A stretch of DNA of 64,000 bases from Ulva prolifera (lineage: Eukaryota > Chlorophyta > Ulvophyceae > Ulvales > Ulvaceae). Position 1 is the first letter of the stretch, and each line of letters starts with the position of its first letter. Of the stretch, positions 3,562-38,638 are shown one piece after another. The notes below the pieces were generated by a model. That model ran no database searches. It saw nothing but the letters and a program-made list of their open reading frames with translations, and was not told where the DNA came from. The stretch is from contig CM041199.1 of assembly GCA_023078555.1 (NCBI GenBank), positions 248,001 to 312,000 of the forward strand, given 5' to 3'. Both the position numbers and the translations under genes were made by a program.

Positions 3562-6017
3562 ATGTGGAGCATCTGCAGCGTGATCGCCTGGGCTGCAGCG
3601 GCCGCCCTGCTGCCACCAGCAGCGACCGCAGCACGCCTCGACTTGTGGCCCACAAGCACCGGCCGGATCCGTGGCCTGAACGAGAGCCGCTACTATGCGC
3701 ACGGAGAGGAGCGAATCGGGTGCGGCCCTCCGCGACACCGTCACGCTCCGGGCCCTTCCGTTGTCTTCTTTTCTCCTGAGGTACCTGTGGCTGGCATGGC
3801 CACAACCATTCTCCAGAGCCGCCACATGCCCCTGAACCTTACCTGCACTCCAACAAGCCGCGTGCTTGTAAGGGGCGAGAGCCACGGCGCCTGCGGCTCT
3901 CGCCGCGGCGCACTGGCCGGGCCTCTCACGCCGCTTCACGCTCCAGCGGCAGCCCGGTGCATGCATGCATGGCGCCCGGAGGCTCCGGAACGCTGGTGCA
4001 GCTCAGCATGACCGCAGCACACCCGCGGCAGTCCCGCGTCGTGGCTATTGGAGCGCCCTCCGGCCGGTGGCTCGGCAGTCACACCCGCGGCCTCCAGAGC
4101 TCTGGCACACGCAGCTCAGCCACCGCGTGGGGCACCCGGCCAGCAGCTCCAGGCCGCCGTGTGGACGTGTTGCCCCGGCGGCCTGCCGCTGCCCCTGCGA
4201 CAGCCAGCAGCGGCAGCCTCGGCGCTCAGTGTGACCCTGCCGCAGCAGCCCCACACACAGCAGGCCGGCGTCAACTCTTCTTTGCTAATGAAGTCAATTC
4301 GCTGCAGCCGCATCTCACGGGCCACGCCGGCGGGTGACACCGGCCAGGTGCTGCTGCAGGTGGGACCTCCCATCCTACGGCACGATCAGGGTGCTCAGCG
4401 GCGTCGCGGCGGGGTCCTACATCGTGTCCAAGGACGACCGCCGCGACGGGCAGAGCGCGTTCATCCGCGCTGACACGGACGCGCAGCTGGCGTCCGTCTT
4501 TGAGTTCTACTACCGCACAGACGTCGATGTGTACATGCTGACGGGCGTGAGCTTCAAGTTTGGCCCCGGCACCGACGACGGCTGGGGCGAACGCATGTGC
4601 GGTTCGCGGGTGGCACTGCCGGGTTGTCTCGAGCCGCGCGGTGCATGCATGCGGTGGCTGGGCCACGTGCATGGCTCTGCTGCAGATGTGCCTGTGCATG
4701 AGCCACAGTACTCGTATATGTCCACGCAAGTGTGCAAGTGCTCCGCGAATATCTCTGCTTCACTTCCGCCGTGCCACGTCACGCCTGTCCGGAAGACCAT
4801 TCACGGTACATCCAATTCGCCACACGCATGTGATCCACTGTATGGCAGAGCGGCGTGGGCTGACTGCGCGCCTGTGCATGAACAACATGCCTGCGTTACA
4901 AGGACAAAGCGAGCGAGGCAGCACCGCGGGCAACATGAACGCAGCACATGAACAGCATGGCCCTGTGCGTGCGTGTCACTGTCATGCGCCGCAAGCACAC
5001 TGGAAACCCGGTCACGAGCAGTCCACTTGCGAGGCTCCGGCTTTAGGTCCTGAGGGGCCGCTGCTGTGACTCTAATCTACCGTGCGTCTATACCACGACC
5101 TGCGTCTGTGTGTGGTGTGTTTATGGGGTGCGGGCAGTGCCCGCATGGCAGGTGGTGTCACCGTGTGGTGCCTCCGAGGGCCAACTGTCGCTGCTTCTCG
5201 CCACCGCTGTGGGTTCCTCACGGAGCCATCACGTATGCATGTGTCCAGTCACATGCCATCAGGCCACACTCGTCGCACCTGTACGCCTCTTGTATGCATG
5301 CCTGGCATCTGTGAGTGATGTGGTCTGCCTTCTCCCGTTGCTGTGTTGGCTGCAGTGTTCTGGCGCCGCAGCTGGGCAGCCTCGCTCTCGAGGACTGAAT
5401 GTCAGGCAGCCTGCCATCAACCCAGATGCAGGCGTTAGTTTGCTAGAATCCCTGAAGTATGCTGATATCTGATGAGGCCGTTTGGCGAGGCCGAACGAGG
5501 TCACGTGTGTCCACGATCGTGATCACCCTCGGCCAGTGAGCTTCCCTCCCCCGACAGTACACACCCCCTCGACCCATTCGGCGTGCACCAGTGTTGGGCA
5601 GCCTCGCAGAAGCTTCAGGTCTGCCACCGGCAAATCAGACCCAAACAATCGGAATTGTTCTGCGTGGTCGGGCCCGACGACCCAGCACTGGTCCACACAC
5701 GGTGGCAGCGGCGGCCTGCGTGCAGGTGCCTCTCAGTGCATGGCACGCTGCCGGACGACACGCTCCCCAACGACGAGACGCGCGTCATCGCGCACCAGTA
5801 CCAGAGCCTGCTGCGGGTGTGGAAGTTCACGGCGCACGCGGACGGCGGCTTCGTGATGCAGCCGATGCCCCACTGGACCGGCGGCAACGAGCAGAAGGAG
5901 GCCGGGTACTACCTCGCCGTCCCGGAGGACGTCCCGCCGCGCGACGAGCAGAGCAGGTTTGTGTCCGTCGTGAAGGATGCGGACAAGGCCGCCCGCGTGG
6001 AGATCGAGGTGCCGTGA
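3562..6017 (+). CDS. secreted protein of unknown family, multi-exon
   Basis: The ATG at 3562 opens a clear signal peptide (start MWSICSVIAW, then Ala/Leu-rich, cleavage probably near TAARLDL). Exon 1 runs to about 3867 (donor GTAAGG). A probable exon near 4270-4330 (peptide QLFFANEVNSLQPHLTG) joins in phase to an exon at 4360-4596, whose product has an acidic, aromatic-rich, beta-like stretch (VFEFYYRTDVDVYMLTGVSF). This joins in phase to the last exon, 5726-6017, ending EIEVP-stop. The link from exon 1 to the second exon is not phase-resolved, so an exon or splice choice may be missing. The product is probably exported or cell-surface. The last intron carries a MITE copy (5589-5690). I do not recognise a domain. 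Confidence 0.55.
5589..5690 (+). mobile_element. hAT-like MITE, copy b
   Basis: This 102-bp copy begins CAGTGTTGGG and ends GACCCAGCACTG, with the family core GGTCGGGCCCGACGACCC. It lies in the last intron of the secreted-protein gene, about 35 bp before that intron's acceptor. No clear target duplication remains (GCGTGCAC against GTCCACAC). Confidence 0.7.
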
Positions 6018-22200: not shown

Positions 22201-25200
22201 CTATGCAGCTGGATTTGCAGTAGTGTGTACGCGGATTCTTCTCCGTGTGGCTGCTCTCTACCCTGCTGTTGGGTCATCTGCTGCCACTAGCGGTGCTTCA
22301 TCTGGTGTTGTCAACTTGTCAGGGTGATCCAGCAAGGATTGTGGTGTAGAAATGTACTCACACGAATTGCAACGATAGATAGTATGATGCACACAGCAGC
22401 TAATGTCGCACACCACGACTGTGAACCGGGCTTCTGCTGTTCTCATTGTATCACTGATGGTGCCGTTCGTACGCTGTCTAGTCCCACACAGGTGCTTCGC
22501 CAAGGTGAAGGAGCCACCCCGCTCCGGCCGCACCTCCCGCGCCAGCGCCACCTCTCCCGAGCCCGGCGCCGCACCAGCCACCCCCACCGCCGCAGACGCA
22601 GCAGCGCCGAGCCCCGGAGGCTCGCGCTCCAACACCGCCGCGACCATCCACATCCTCGACGCGAAGCGCGCGCAGAACGTCGAGATCACACTCAAGGCGT
22701 TCAAGCGGCCGCTTGCGGAGCTCGCGGGCGCGGTCGCGCGCATGGAAGCGGCGGAGCTGCCGCGCGAGGCGATCCCGCAGCTCGTGTCGATCATGCCGGC
22801 TGAGGCGGACTACGAGCGGCTGCGGGCGGGGATCGAGGCGGCAGGGGGCCGTGCCGCGGTCGGCGGCCGCCTCGGCGTCGCGGAGGCGTTCTTCCTGCTG
22901 CTATTGGACATCCCGGCAGCGCGGGAGAAGGCGGAGGCGCTGGAGTTCAAGGTCACGTTCACAGACATCGTCGCGGAGCTGCAGGTGCGCGCCCGCGGCA
23001 TGCGGTGATTCTTGGTGCCTCTACACGCATGCATGCGTGTGTGGTGCAGTCTCTGGGATGGCTGCATTGCAGATAGTCGCCTCCGGAGGTTCGCAGATCT
23101 AGCGTGCGAGAATCGTGCGCTGCAGTGGGGGCAGCGTGCACCGCCCTCCAGACGCGCTCTACGCATGCTCGCGCCACCTTTTGTTTTTTGTATCGCGAGC
23201 TGTGATCCGATGGAACGCCGGCGTGTTGGTGGCTTCAGCGTGGCGGTGCTGTGCAGGAGGTGTGCAGCAGCATGGAGGCGGCGGTGGCGGAGGTGCGCGC
23301 GTGCGGCGGGCTCTCGGTGATCGCGCGCGCCGTGCTCGCGTTCAGCAACCGCCTGCGCCTCGCCGGCAGCCTCGCGGCGGGCGCGGAGGGCAACGCGGCG
23401 CAGCTGCAGGTGCTGCAGCGGCGCGCCGTCGCGGCGTACGACGTGGCGAGGCTGCCGCAGCTTCTCGACACGCGCACGCTGCTTGGCGGCGGCACCAAGC
23501 TCTCGCACGTCCTTGTGGCCATGTGCGGCACCCCAACGCTCAGATGCTGTGCGTGTGCATGCGCGCGCGAGCGCGTGCGCTGGGGATACTGTTTTTTGTA
23601 TGTATGTATGTCTGCATTGTCGCGCATCCATATCTGTTGGGAGATTGACCACTCCGAAATCCGGGATTGCACGAGGCATTCAAGCTGCGTATTGCGGCGA
23701 ACATGTGGTGTGCGATACTTCAGCATGGGTGCCCTGGCGGTTGCTGGCTCTGAGCGCAGGTGATGGTGCCATAGGTGGAGTCGTGTGCTGCTGACTACCT
23801 CTGGGCCCTGCAGCTTGGTTAGGTCAACGTGAGCGTACCTGCCCCCATAAGTGGGGTTGGGCCCTCGCGCTATGCTGCTGCTGTCAATCTGGGCTTGCAA
23901 AGGGGGGCTCCTACCGCAAGCGTTTTGCAATACAACTGCTTTCAGCACAGACGGCCGGAGTTACACAGCATCATACGCTCTAGAGGCTTCAATGTGCCTG
24001 TGGGTGTGGCTGTGTCATCATTATATTCCATGTAAGGTTTCGTGCATGCACCCACGTGTGCTGACACGGCGTCGGGGCACAGGTTGGAGCAGACCCGGCC
24101 GGACGCACTCGCCCTGCACGAGGCGATGCCGTCGCTGCCCCGCGGGGCGGAGCACACGTTCGAGAGTGTCGCGCGGCGCCTCGCGGAGCTCAACGCCGGC
24201 ATCGCCGCCGTCCGCACGCAGGCGCACGCGGCCGACCGCGCCGCCGCCGGGCCCAGCGCAACAGCGACCGCGGCCGCGCCGGGGAGCGGTGCAGACGCCG
24301 CGTTGGCGGCGGGCGGCGGCCCGGGCCTGCAGTCGCACCCGCTGCCGTCACTGCTGCTCGGCGATGGGCCCGCTAGCGGCGGCAGCCTCGGGAGTCTGGG
24401 AGGTGCGGGCCGAATGCGGTGCTGCAGAGTGACCGCCTGAGTGTTCCATGCTGTCCATAACCGACCTGCTGTCTGTAAAGTAAAGTAAACCTGAATTTAC
24501 TGAGCCGTATCCTATTGGACATTGACAACTCCAAAGTAACGGGACCACATATGCCGAAGGGGTAAACCAACTGGAAACCCCCCTCAGACGACCGTACGCA
24601 ACTCACAGGGCCTCCTCCTGTGCTAAGCGAGGTGGTCACGTACGGCCGTTTCGATTCCCCAAAGCGCACGCAGAATCGAACCCACGACCTCCTGTCGCTT
24701 CGCCGTTCAGTGCCTGTGTTGGAGCGGGGCAAGGTCATGTGCTCCATGCATTGCACAGGTGCCGCAGCTCAACCGGTGCTACGAGGTGACTCTGCACTGT
24801 GGAGCGATCGAGAAAACAGGTGTTGCTGCAGGCACCCCGGTGCCGTCGTGTGAAGCTATGTCTGGCCCAGTGTCCCCCCTGGCGGCCGCGGGCCCCTCCT
24901 CCGGCTCCCCCTGCGCCTCCGTCTCGCCGACTCTGGGGATCTGCGGTTCGGATGCCGCCCGCCCCGCCCCAGACGCTCACCAGCACACGCCGCAGAAGGC
25001 CGCCCACCCCGGCCTCCACCCGCCCGCCGGCAGCCCCTCTGAACCACACAGCCCCGAGTTCAGAGCGCCGGCGGGGAGCCCCCTGCTGCGCTCCGGCGGC
25101 GGCGGCCGTGGAGAGGGCGGCGAGGCGTGCACGCCGCAGCTGCTCTCGCGGCCGAGCGGCGGCGCGCCGGAGCCGTCCCCGCAGAGCGACGCCCTGTGGG

Positions 25201-29335: not shown

Positions 29336-32008
29336 TTACATCGCAGCAAGCTTCCCCACGGCTTCCTCAAGGGGCTTCTTCTTGTAGCCGACAACTTCAG
29401 TCACCACTTGTTCCCCGCCCTTGAAGAACCTGAAGGCAGGCAGTGCGCTCACGCCGAGCTCCCTTGCAAGCGGTGCCAGCTCCTCGCTGGCCGTGTCAAA
29501 CTTGTAGAACTTGATGTTCGGGTGGCTCTTCTGCAGCGCCTCGACGTGTGGCGCGATCATGCGGCACTTGCCGCACCACGGCGCCATGAAGTCGACCTGT
29601 AGCAGCACCACACAGGTGAAAACAATTTTGTTTCCCACACCCGGTGTGACCTTTTGTGACCAAGCGGGGCTTTCTGGCGCGGTTTCAGATCGGACCTCTG
29701 CATCGCAGAGCACCTACAGTCCGCATTCAAAGCATGGGCATCATGATCGGCAGCTGAGGCCGTAGGGGCAGGATCGAATGCATTGGCATGGGGCGTTTCG
29801 TGACCGCTGCGTTGTTGACCTGCCCTGCAGGGCCCTGTGCGCCGGTGAGCCGGCCGGCCACCACGCCACTCACAGCCGCCGCCCCCTGCTAGCTGCAGCA
29901 GTATCACACAGAGCCGCTCCATAGAGAGGCTCACCGCACGGAGGCCGAGCGGGCAGCGTCAGCACATGCCGTGGCAATGGTCCACACCAAGCTCTAAGCT
30001 ACAAGGACGACGCGCCACATACGGTGTCGCCGCATCACGACAGGAGCCAATGACCAGAGCCAAGCAACGCACCGACAGAGCCGCACGCAGTCCGATCACT
30101 TTCATCATTGAAACATCAGAACATGTGAGCATGTGCTGCGGCATTATTCGTTGTGTGATATAAATTGATTATGTATCGTGTATAAAACATAGCAGATGCT
30201 ATCGTGCCATCACGGGCTGTATCGCCGCACACCACGACGGGCCCGTCCTGTGCGATTGCCGCCGAGAACTCCTCAGGGGACGCCACGGGCAGCAGCGTCT
30301 TGCCGAAGTCGTCATCGTCGTCCGAGGCCGCCGCCGAGCTGAAGTACTCGAGCGACGCGTCGGGGTCGGCGATCATCGTCGCCTCGCCCGGCTGCCAGTT
30401 TGCAGGGCACACAACGCCATGCTCCTCGACGTACTGGAACGCGTCGAGCAGGCGGCTCGCCTCGCCGACGCTGCGCCCGACGTCGTTGTGCAGGATCTGC
30501 ATCGCCTTGAGCTCGCCCTGCACGGCGGCGCGCGCGTGCATGGGGTGCATGCGTGTTCACATATGTTGCTGTCTAGTGGTATATATACCATACTACCACT
30601 ACACAAGACATCAATCATATCACTGGGCTGCCACAGTGCCATGGAGGGTGATAGATTAGCAGGCCAGGTAGGCACCACAACCCATGGCACGCTGCGATCA
30701 GTCGATGGGAATTGCGTAGCGGGTGATCCGGGAGTGCGCAGTGCGCGGCCGCCCCCGCACAGCGCAGCACACAACCGGCTGCACAGCATGGAGCACAGCT
30801 TGGCACACAGCATGGCGCACAGCACACAACCGGCTGCACAGCATGGAGCACAGCATGGAGCACAGCATGGCGCACAGCACACACGATCAGATTTACTTTA
30901 CTTTACTTTACACGTCCGGTCTGCTGCAGGCATGCAGTTGTCAAGGGTGCCACCGGCATCACACCGGCAGCACGCAGCACACAGCATGCACTCCCGGCTT
31001 CACAATGACCACGCAGCGGCAGGGCCTGACGGCAATGCATTCACAACCATCCCTAGCACGCAGCACGCAGCACGCACCGTGGGGTCCATGAGGAACATGC
31101 CCCGGTAGGGGAAGTTGCCGGCGCCGAGGACGCCGTAGGCGCGGGAGACGCGGCGGTCGACGTCCGCGAGGAGCGGGATCTGCATCGCGCCGAGGCCGCC
31201 GCGGCGCCGGGGCGTGCGCATCCACGCGAGGTGCACCTCCGCGGAGTCCGTGGAGGCCCCGACGACCTCGCAGTTGCGCGCGCGGAAGCTCTCGGCGGCG
31301 TCGGAAAACGCGATGATCTCCGTCGGGCACACAAAGGTGAAGTCTTTAGGGTAGAAGAAGAGGAGGACCCACTTGCCGATGTAGTCGGCGGCCTTGACCC
31401 TGCAGGGGGGGTGGGGGTGCAGCTGTGGCGGCCCGGCTACATGCGGATGTTTGACACATGGACTTGCGTCGTTTGCGGTGGGCATTTGCAGGTGGCACAG
31501 CACGCGTGATGCTGTAAATTGTGACCCACACACGGTGGCATGGGGCCAGGGGTGCGGATCGGGGCGGGGCTACAAAGTGCCGATTTGGCTGATGTGTTGT
31601 GCGGAGAATGGCACAGAGCGGCAGGGGCATTCGCTTGGGGTATCATGAAGCGGGGGCACGCGAATGCTTGGTTGTGCAGACGCGGCGTGTGAACGTCGTG
31701 GCCACTTGGCGTTGCGAAGGCAGCCCCTGGCTACGTGTGCGAGGTCTATCTGGAGCGCCAGAAATGTGCCTAGAGCAGTGGGGCAAGGCCTTCGCCACGG
31801 TAGCGTCGGCTGCCGGCCTGAGAGGCAGCACAGGCAGCGATAGTGGTGGCGGTGCGGATGTGGCGCACTCGGTAATTTCATTGTCCACCACCGCGTCTGC
31901 AGAGAAGTTGGGCGCTGGTCGCCCAATTCCAATCATCGACTGCTGGATTCCATCTGGAGGAAGTGTGTAAGCTTGTAGTGTTTCCTTTGACCGGTTCCAG
32001 TCGCACAT
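29336..32008 (-). CDS. typical 2-Cys peroxiredoxin fused to thioredoxin
   Basis: Four exons, 32008-31869, 31399-31078, 30517-30233 and 29596-29336, join with every phase intact to give 335 residues. Residues 30 to about 215 are an AhpC/Prx1-type peroxiredoxin: [10 protein letters not shown], then [12 protein letters not shown] with the peroxidatic Cys at 71, and HGVVCPANW with the resolving Cys at 191. Both motifs of overoxidation-sensitive enzymes are present: GGLG (in [10 protein letters not shown]) and a C-terminal EYF. A short acidic linker (SDDDDDFG) leads into a complete thioredoxin domain, from [14 protein letters not shown] to [13 protein letters not shown] (Cys257/Cys260) and the cis-Pro turn [10 protein letters not shown]. 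The product should reduce peroxide and recycle its own disulfide. The frame is open upstream of the ATG to near 32075, so an extra 5' exon is possible. No obvious transit peptide is seen. Confidence 0.88.
30760..30915. repeat. tandem repeat plus SINE tail in peroxiredoxin-thioredoxin intron 2
   Basis: Units of about 9-15 bp (CAGCATGGAGCACAG, CAGCATGGCGCACAG) alternate with ACACAACCGGCTGCA from about 30765 to 30885. They are followed by AGATTTACTTTACTTTAC at about 30892-30912, which matches the 3' tail of the SINE family without its body. Confidence 0.7.
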
Positions 32009-35900: not shown

Positions 35901-38638
35901 TGCAGTGGGGAACGTGATTGTACACTCCAAGAACACAGAGGTCCTCGTCGCGTTTTGAATGTGCCCGTGCTGCTATGACTGGACGCGTGTGCATGCATGT
36001 ACAGGGCATCCGGTCCCCGGACCGCGGCATCCTGCTGTACGGGCCGCCGGGCAACGGCAAGACGCTGTTGGCGCGCGCCGCGGCGGGGGCGGCGTCGGCG
36101 GCCTTCCTCGCCGTCTCGGCGTCGGCGCTCACCTCGAAGTGGCACGGGGAGGCTGAGAAGCTCGTGCGTAGCCTGTTCAAGGTGGCGCGCGCCCGTGCCC
36201 CGGCCATCATCTTCCTCGACGAGGTGCACCACCCACGCCAGCCACGCACAGGCCGCACCATCCGAATGTCGTCTTCACTCCGCATGCATGCGTGTGCCAT
36301 CGGCCTCAGGTGCCGCGGCCCGCCCGGCCGACAGACAGCGCGACATTCTGCGTGGGGCAGGAGACAGTCCACGGCCGAGGGGGCCGTGCCGAATTGGGTA
36401 GTCACTTCACGGAATCCCAAGTAGATTTATCTCGAGATAACGAGGTAGAGTGGCTCCCGCGTAAGCTTCCTTGTAGGGGCTAGTGTGAGAGGGTGGCTGC
36501 GGTTACGCACAGACTCGCACCACTGCCACATAACACATCGACTCATCTCGTCATCAGCAGCTGGGCCCACACAGCATGCGCCGCATGCGTGACCCGCCAG
36601 CATTCCATGGTGAACATGGGCACTGTTTGTCAGAGCCGGCAGTGGTGTACGTACACGCACACCACAGCCACACTGGTATCTCTGGGCGGGAGGCGTGTTG
36701 AACAAAGAAACGGCGCAGGCGAGGTCGCGTGCTGTGACCGCATGCCCGCAGCAGAGGGGCGCTGTGGGTGTGCAGGTGGACTCGCTGCTGGGCGAGCGCT
36801 CTGCGGCGGAGCACGAGGCGTCGCGGCGCCTGAAGACGGAGTTCCTCGTGCAGATGGACGGCGCGTCCGGCGACAACGCACGCCTGCTCGTCCTCGCCGC
36901 CACAAACCGCCCGCAGGTACGTCGACTCAACAGCCCCGACACTGAGAGATCCCTCAACCCCCCCTCTCTACGATTTGAATCTCGAATGCCCTTTTGAGCA
37001 GTGTGAGTTGGCGCGCATGGGTGTGTGTCCAACATTTGCATGTTTTACAACGACAGCGTCGGAGTCGCCAGGAGCACCGCCAGAGCAGCGAACAAGCAGG
37101 CCAACGCCCCAATGCATGCACGGCATGAGGCGTACACCGACGCCGAACCCGAACACGGCGCCCAGTCACAGCATGACAGACATCTCCATGTGTGCCGGCG
37201 TGCACGAGAGGCACTGAGCCAGGGGGATGCCAGTGCGAGGCCCTGATCCAGGGTGCGTCCCTGCAGGATCTGGACACCGCCGTCATCCGGAGGCTGCCGA
37301 AGCGCATCTACATCCCCCTGCCGGACCTCGACGCCCGGACGACGATGATTCGGAAGCTGCTCAGCGACGTCGCATACAGGCTCTCGGGTGCGTGGCAGCC
37401 CCGACCGCCTCGCAGGTGCCGCCGTGGCGCACTCTCGCCCATTCCCTGCCCTTCGATCTGCACCGTTGCAGCAGCTTGCTCGGCGACCGATCAAGCTGTA
37501 TGTGGTTACAAAGGACAGAGGCCGGGCGTGGAGCCGGTTCTCGGAATCCACTCGCAAATCCACTCACGCATTCATGGCACTAGGCCGGGCCCGAGCGCGT
37601 ACCACAGCCCTGCCGGTGATTCCAGCCAAAGATTGAAGCCCCGCACGGAGCACATACCCCTTCCCGTTACACAACGCTACAATCAAGCTGTATGCACGTA
37701 TGCCTGACTGAACAGCCACATCCGAAGGGCCCTTGGCCACCCTGACAGCCTCAGCACAGGCCGAGACGCCCTCGTCGTGATCAGGGAGTGATTCGGCACC
37801 ACACACAGCACACCGTTTGAGTTTTCGCCAGGTCGTCGCTGACACATTGCGTATGTGAGGTTGCACTCAGGGCAGGCACAGCTGCTAGCTGCCGAGCTGT
37901 GCGTCTTGCCTGCGCCCATGTACAGGCTGCGCTTCAGCGGTGCTGGTAGCATACCATGAAGTGCGCGGTGCCGGCGTCTTGCGGCCCCGCGGCCGACCTC
38001 AATGAAGGCACTAGCTCATATTGATTATCGGGCCGGGCGAGCAGACGCTGCTCCACAGAGGTGCACCGCACATCACCACGCATGCTCACCATGCGTTCGC
38101 ACGTCTCCGCCCAGATTCACGGCACATGTGGTCCCGTTAATTCGGAGTTGTCAATGTCCTTTCAGGATACGGCTCAGTGAATTCAAATATTGTCTTTACT
38201 CTACTTAACGAGCCTCCGCTTGTGCGGCTTCCCTATCATGCTCGGTCGATGCAGTGGGGATGGTATGGTGCAGGGCAGTGTTGGGTCGCGTTGCAGCATT
38301 TTCAGGGCTGCCACCCAAAAAAATAGACCTGGATTCTCAGAATTGTTCTATGTGATCGGGCCCGATGACCCAACACTGGTGCAGGGGAGGAGATGCGGCA
38401 GCTTGCTGCAGGCGCGGAGCTCTACAGCGCATCGGACCTGAAGGCGTTGTGCCACGAGGCTGCGATGGGGCCGCTGCGGGAGCACGGCGGCTCGCTGGCC
38501 ACCGTGAGGGCGTCGCGCCTGCGGCCGGTCACGGTGGCGGACTTTGCGGCTGCGCTGACCGTCATCCGGCCGTCGGTGACCGCGCAGCAGGTGCAGCAGC
38601 TGGAGCGCTGGAGCCAGGGCTTTGGCGCTGCAAGCTGA
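32912..38638 (+). CDS. spastin-like MIT-AAA ATPase (microtubule severing)
   Basis: Exons 32912-33082, 33177-33367, 33734-33891, 34911-35110, 36005-36223, 36776-36916, 37267-37387 and 38385-38638 all join in phase (484 residues from 32912). The N-terminal part is a MIT-like helical bundle ([11 protein letters not shown], ending HMSQHAKDR), followed by a Pro/Gln-rich linker. The AAA core has [18 protein letters not shown], Walker A GPPGNGKT, pore loop [12 protein letters not shown], Walker B IIFLDE spliced to [21 protein letters not shown] and the paired-Arg finger VIRRLPKR. The C terminus [20 protein letters not shown] fits spastin/fidgetin better than katanin or Vps4. It is a hexameric ATPase acting on microtubules or membranes. 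The start codon lies in an unidentified upstream exon. The last intron's acceptor lies inside a MITE target duplication. Confidence 0.88.
34110..34154. repeat. near-perfect palindrome in spastin-gene intron
   Basis: Arms GTCGGGCTGGCCTC and GAGGCCAGCCCGAC enclose AGCGCGG-G-CCGCGCT, so nearly the whole 45-bp stretch is self-complementary. It sits in the intron between 33891 and 34911. Confidence 0.8.
34462..34625 (+). repeat. dispersed repeat (GCCCTGGCGGTGCT family) plus short tandem repeats
   Basis: The block around TTGCTCGTTGCCCTGGCGGTGCT, followed by CCACTCCGGCTTTGTCTTTG, recurs in inverted orientation at about 37060-37112 and 38708-38758, and directly, more diverged, at about 45775-45832. 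Next to it are duplicated GTGACACACAGTC and CACACGGCTG...GGGCACAGTTGTCGTGCAT units. Confidence 0.6.
34727..34765 (+). repeat. SINE 3' fragment
   Basis: GGTCCCGACTCTGGAGTTGTCAATGTCCC matches the body/3' junction of the SINE family (GGTCCCGTTAATTCGGAGTTGTCAATGTCC) over about 30 bp. The fragment lacks both the tRNA-like head and the TTTAC tail. Confidence 0.45.
38124..38207 (+). mobile_element. 5'-truncated SINE, fragment D
   Basis: This fragment runs from ACATGTGGTCCCGTTAATTC to a degenerate CTTTACTCTACTTA tail. It contains TTGTCAATGTCC and GATACGGCTCAGT like the full copies but lacks the tRNA-related head, consistent with 5' truncation during reverse transcription. It lies in the last intron of the spastin-like gene. 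Confidence 0.75.
38276..38378 (+). mobile_element. hAT-like MITE, copy c, at a splice acceptor
   Basis: This 103-bp element has ends CAGTGTTGGGTCG and GACCCAACACTG and the family core TGATCGGGCCCGATGACCC. It is flanked by a perfect 8-bp duplication GTGCAGGG (38268-38275 and 38379-38386). The right copy supplies the acceptor of the last spastin-gene intron (GTGCAG, then exon GGGAGGAG). Confidence 0.88.

Follow-up and report, generated by a model that had tools for sequence, protein, structure and literature searches.

A hAT-like MITE family of Ulva prolifera with copies at 3' splice sites, where the target duplication rebuilds the acceptor

The last intron of an AAA gene and the element at its 3' end

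The window (the whole stretch of 64,000 nucleotides analysed here) carries on its plus strand a gene for an AAA protein. An exon at 36005..36223 covers the region from Walker A to Walker B, its translation including FLDE, and the next one (36776..36916) is bounded by the acceptor GTGCAG and the donor GTACGT, both read from the sequence; the match to Pfam AAA supports these exons. A further exon (37267..37387) precedes the last intron, which begins with the donor GTGCGTGG at 37388 and, if the right-hand of two possible acceptors is used, extends to 38384 (997 nt). The last exon (38385..38638, stop codon included) encodes the lid and the Vps4_C region, as assigned from its translation and Pfam.

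The 3' end of this intron is occupied by a 103-bp miniature inverted-repeat element (MITE) at 38276..38378 on the plus strand, with the left terminal inverted repeat CAGTGTTGGGTC (38276..38287) and the right one GACCCAACACTG (38367..38378), both read from the sequence and complementary at 12 of 12 positions. The element is 95.1% identical to a consensus of 74 copies, and it is flanked by two exact copies of the 8-bp target duplication GTGCAGGG, at 38268..38275 and 38379..38386, each of which contains the whole acceptor GTGCAG together with GG of the exon. The AG at 38272-38273 marks the older acceptor position, and that at 38383-38384 is the acceptor which restores the frame. The other acceptors read in this gene end in CAG as well.

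Splicing from the donor at 37388 to 38385 restores the AAA reading frame in the joined translation. Joined with the two preceding exons, the right-hand reading matches Pfam AAA (3.1e-39) and Vps4_C (2.2e-6), and neither of the two displayed alignments with solved AAA proteins from PDB is interrupted by a gap at the junction. Left-hand splicing would make the MITE part of the exon and lead to an in-frame TAG at 38324-38326. In these respects, i.e., a MITE exactly at the last intron/exon boundary, a perfect duplication identical with the acceptor, an in-phase right-hand copy restoring the C terminus and an early stop after the left-hand one, the first-pass annotation of the window was borne out. 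Its description of the gene as spastin-like is better broadened to AAA (spastin/fidgetin-like), as PDB chains of spastin and of fidgetin-like proteins match it to about the same degree, the highest-ranking PDB entries being of the AFG2 type. No empty site for the insertion was found in the alga's own genome, where the exons of the gene are single-copy.

Other repeats were observed in the same intron. A 190-bp high-copy repeat (37497-37686) has matches at 84-93% identity, often several close together, among the about 40 of 3,148 candidates that were scored, and is flanked by two copies of ATCAAGCTGTATG (37490-37502 and 37682-37694). An 85-bp stretch (38120-38204) is found again elsewhere in the genome, close to copies of the 190-bp repeat, at C3:11731093 and C5:2082491. 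Elsewhere in the window, three more copies of the MITE, partly diverged, lie near 1668 (+), near 5589 (+) and at about 24700-24799 (-). A minus-strand reading frame at 31000-31569 encodes, as read from its translation, residues which we take to be typical of a 2-Cys peroxiredoxin. The window has no match in Rfam.

Copy number, target motif and hAT-like affiliation of the family

Copies of the element were sought in the window's own genome (88.9 Mb in 44 contigs), whose chlorophyll-binding proteins point to a green alga. A search with the element gave at least 41 matches among the 40 of 935 candidates that were scored. Both exact 12-bp terminal repeats, 89-114 bp apart, were found at 189 places (none for a reversed-pattern control), and single exact repeats at 881 (446 + 435; control 8 + 3). 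If both ends decay independently, these figures give an estimated family size of roughly 1,000 copies. Within the genome stretches analysed, 76 copies, some of them old, were collected with up to three mismatches allowed per repeat; the family consensus is 102 bp long, and the median identity of 74 copies to it (0.951) equals that of the window copy (0.951).

The 8-bp duplication is perfect in 36 of the 76 copies, has one mismatch in 24 and more in 16, against a background of 0.25% perfect duplications in mismatched left/right pairs; no copy has a maximal match of 7 or 9 bp. The 36 perfect duplications prefer C or G in first place, TG in second and third, and CAG in the last three positions. 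Thirty of them have the T in second place and 24 the A in seventh, a preference of the nTnnnnAn type, which belongs to the hAT superfamily. GCAG stands directly before 95 of the 881 exact repeat ends, whereas base composition predicts 9.2. The target form of the family, STGnnCAS, thus resembles the acceptor motif of the genome, (T)GCAG.

A candidate transposase-bearing relative came from the 16 matches of the hAT dimerisation domain (PF05699) in the genome. The 3' flank was read for four of these loci, and one of them (C4:10092314) has CCAACACTG followed by GCCTGCAC there, downstream of the open frame. The combination of GCCTGCAC and CAGTGTTGG has a single exact match in the genome, at C4:10090225, 2.6 kb upstream of that 3' end, where the sequence reads GCCTGCAC CAGTGTTGGCA. 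Together these ends delimit an element of 2,597 bp (G000:C4:10090233-10092829; L110, L088) with 11-bp repeats, a perfect 8-bp duplication GCCTGCAC and a PF05699 match at 2.6e-6. Because the MITE shares with this hAT-domain element its outer 9 bp and the length of the duplication, the family is hAT-like. The inner sequences differ, so the larger element need not be the direct parent of the MITE, and that the only hAT partner found has the outer 9 bp alone in common may be held against the assignment.

Terminal inverted repeats of hAT elements typically start with CAGTG, and so do those of the present family. The 8-bp duplications, the high copy number, the lack of coding capacity and a transposase-bearing relative with common outer ends in the same genome are likewise features of hAT-superfamily MITEs. 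What sets the family apart from these is that several of its copies fall precisely on 3' splice sites, the acceptor being part of the duplication. To our knowledge, this hAT-like MITE family has not been described earlier. For hAT elements in general, 8-bp duplications and repeats of 10-25 bp are given in PMC3942097.

Further copies on acceptors and the weight of the motif

Exons starting exactly at the CAG of a duplication were sought with a codon model trained on the same genome and then by homology. The places examined numbered 96, namely the 76 copies and 20 more GCAG-flanked places, 15 of which have the CAG on the far side as well. Six further homology-supported acceptors with the CAG in the right-hand duplication were found, which makes seven genes with the AAA gene. 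Since at least 41 of the 96 places had been chosen for a GCAG-flanked repeat (in contig order from the 95) and the window copy was the starting point, the proportion of 7 in 96 cannot be taken as a rate for the whole genome.

The six further genes encode an aldo/keto reductase (AKR, L084; Pfam 1.9e-10, PDB 6.4e-10), a carotenoid isomerase (CRTISO, L040; TIGR02730 4.2e-30 from the first residue, with no Pfam and no PDB match), a plasma-membrane Ca-ATPase (L006; PDB 1.1e-7, with no Pfam match for the piece alone), TBC1D31 (L079; PDB 1.8e-31 with the upstream exon joined, and no gap at the junction), a DEAD-box helicase (L105; Pfam Helicase_C 1.6e-17) and a ZNFX1-like protein (L101; Pfam AAA_12 2.2e-6, just above the cut-off, PDB 2.3e-7). 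The upstream sides of all six copies score as non-coding in the codon model.

Several candidates were dropped: L093, where the upstream side is coding by score too; L075, L085, L053, L016 and L109, with no homology at E 1e-3 in those tested (L053 left out); and L078, where both sides score as coding and the duplication is imperfect. In a distance test, 4 of 30 acceptor-type boundaries called within 440 nt of a copy lay at 6-8 nt; the boundary of TBC1D31 was misplaced by the coding score, to 39 nt.

Boundary-like sides, coding after the CAG and non-coding before it, make up 9 of 49 CAG-bearing sides, compared with backgrounds of 5.6% for all CAG (p 0.001), 8.3% for TGCAG (p 0.018), 10.1% for the closest 8-mer motif (p 0.056) and 13.8% for TGCAGG (p 0.23). 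In all 76 copies, a set that includes chosen ones, 8 are acceptor-like (p 0.003); the least biased sample, 51 copies other than the window copy and picked without regard to GCAG, has 3, where 3.2% of target-like sites qualify (p 0.22). Coincidence of the motifs accounts for much of the placement at acceptors.

The remainder of the figures, which come with small numbers, a self-trained coding model and several tests tried, suggests an extra preference for acceptors or a survival advantage there. GCAG-flanked ends are boundary-like in 6 of 36 cases, compared with 53 among 778 motif-matched sites that belong to no element (p 0.039; with 6 of 41, p 0.067), and confirmed by Pfam in 3 of 36, against 7 of 778 (p 0.008; with 3 of 41, p 0.011), the Pfam background covering 50 of 52 open peptides from these sites. 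Moreover, a single copy of the 76 (L078) is coding on both sides, compared with 6.9% of target-like sites (p 0.029). These comparisons would fit an element that, beyond the common motif, is drawn to acceptors or kept there by chromatin, by transcription or by purifying selection against insertions into exons; yet the least biased set gives no such signal, the two tightest motif backgrounds speak against one, and with the caveats named we hold an influence of this kind to be distinctly improbable.

Lengthened introns and the choice between two identical acceptors

The first-pass annotation saw in the insertion the step proposed for introner-type elements, which does not agree with the length of intron already present upstream. 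From donor to left-hand duplication, the intron measures 880 nt in the AAA gene, part of it another repeat, 501 nt in TBC1D31 and about 650 nt in the Ca-ATPase gene (donor uncertain), the three genes for which the upstream exon was available. In the AAA gene, then, the insertion extended an intron that was already there, at its 3' end. Among the 76 copies, 59 have non-coding sequence on either side, and neither a donor-side nor a whole-intron case could be confirmed; of 67 GT-bearing sides one is donor-like (L038, with a weak score and by coding score alone), against 4.2% of target-like sites. The family rebuilds a 3' splice site, which is not intron gain of the introner type.

Introners create a new intron inside an exon, as set out by Gozashti et al. 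(2022; PMC9860276). The terminal repeats, the duplication and the splice site within it, here an acceptor CAG in seven genes, resemble those of some introner families in that account, but there the intron is new, and here an existing one becomes longer at its 3' end with the spliced mRNA unchanged. With long introns ahead of the left-hand duplication in three genes and one copy in 76 between coding sides, it is very improbable that the family consists of introners making whole introns by insertion into exons. The maize element Ds1, also of the hAT type, has an 8-bp duplication and can interact with splicing; according to PMC5432752, Ds1 has donor and acceptor sites within its own ends and was studied for exonisation, whereas here the acceptor is duplicated host sequence. 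No described case of hAT MITEs on acceptors was found in the literature searched, mostly at title level, and repeated insertion into 3' splice sites, with the duplication rebuilding the acceptor, is an unusual feature of the family.

We consider it likely that a hAT-type MITE entered an existing intron at its 3' splice site, that the duplication carried the acceptor along, and that use of the right-hand AG leaves the mRNA unchanged. A non-autonomous element of this type would enter the 3' splice site of a pre-existing intron, and its transposase would make an 8-bp duplication, with a preference for STGnnCAS targets; as this form resembles the acceptor motif (T)GCAG, the duplication can carry a whole acceptor. 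Two identical acceptors 110-117 nt apart would result, the right-hand AG would remove the element along with the intron, and the unchanged mRNA would be the probable reason why such insertions persist in genes that look functional. From the reading frames, predominant use of the right-hand AG seems probable, with the intact mRNA as the likely cause of the copies' survival.

The coding outcome of left-hand use was read in five genes, with L101 and L105 left aside. It leads to a stop within 9 codons in TBC1D31, 12 in the AKR gene, 16 in the AAA gene and 47 in the carotenoid isomerase gene; with such stops in four of the five genes, right-hand use is the likelier. In the Ca-ATPase gene (L006, copy at 1500) it adds 37 open in-frame MITE codons, so exonisation is possible there. 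The left-hand AG, moreover, still has its original upstream sequence and is met before the right-hand one. As a rule the first AG after the branch point is favoured, which would speak for the left-hand one. Either the end of the element must thus supply the branch-point region, or the left-hand AG must be skipped. Masking of this AG by a hairpin was considered and rejected: base pairing between the terminal repeats is predicted, yet the fold as a whole is no better than those of shuffled sequences (z 0.92; 162 of 200 as good).

The old upstream context, the order of the two AGs and the open Ca-ATPase copy would agree with a left-hand AG that is still used, wholly or partly, the element being exonised and the gene weakened, alternatively spliced or heading for loss. 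We regard this as unlikely, given the early stops in the other four genes, whose downstream exons retain recognisable domains. The stretch free of AG before the right-hand acceptor bears on a different proposal, in which the family would act as a mobile module for 3' splice sites: the motif would steer copies onto acceptors, and the element end with the duplicated CAG would replace the branch-point region of the host. This stretch measures 44 nt in the AAA gene and 40 nt in TBC1D31, and only 19-21 nt in the other three genes read, so that the proposal fits only some copies and seems to us rather doubtful. If true, it would place the family at a stage before introners, with element ends selected for acceptor function before founding any intron.

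Returning to insertion into an existing acceptor with right-hand splicing, it is reasonable to suppose that the insertion in the AAA gene has been tolerated owing to use of the right-hand acceptor. Several acceptor-keeping insertions of one hAT-type family are present in recognisable genes of one genome. Each of them is a natural test of how the spliceosome chooses between identical AGs 110-117 nt apart, and of whether the end of an element can act as a branch-point region. They bear on how transposons reside harmlessly in introns and on how a DNA transposon may become an introner, and would make one route of mobile DNA into introns testable.
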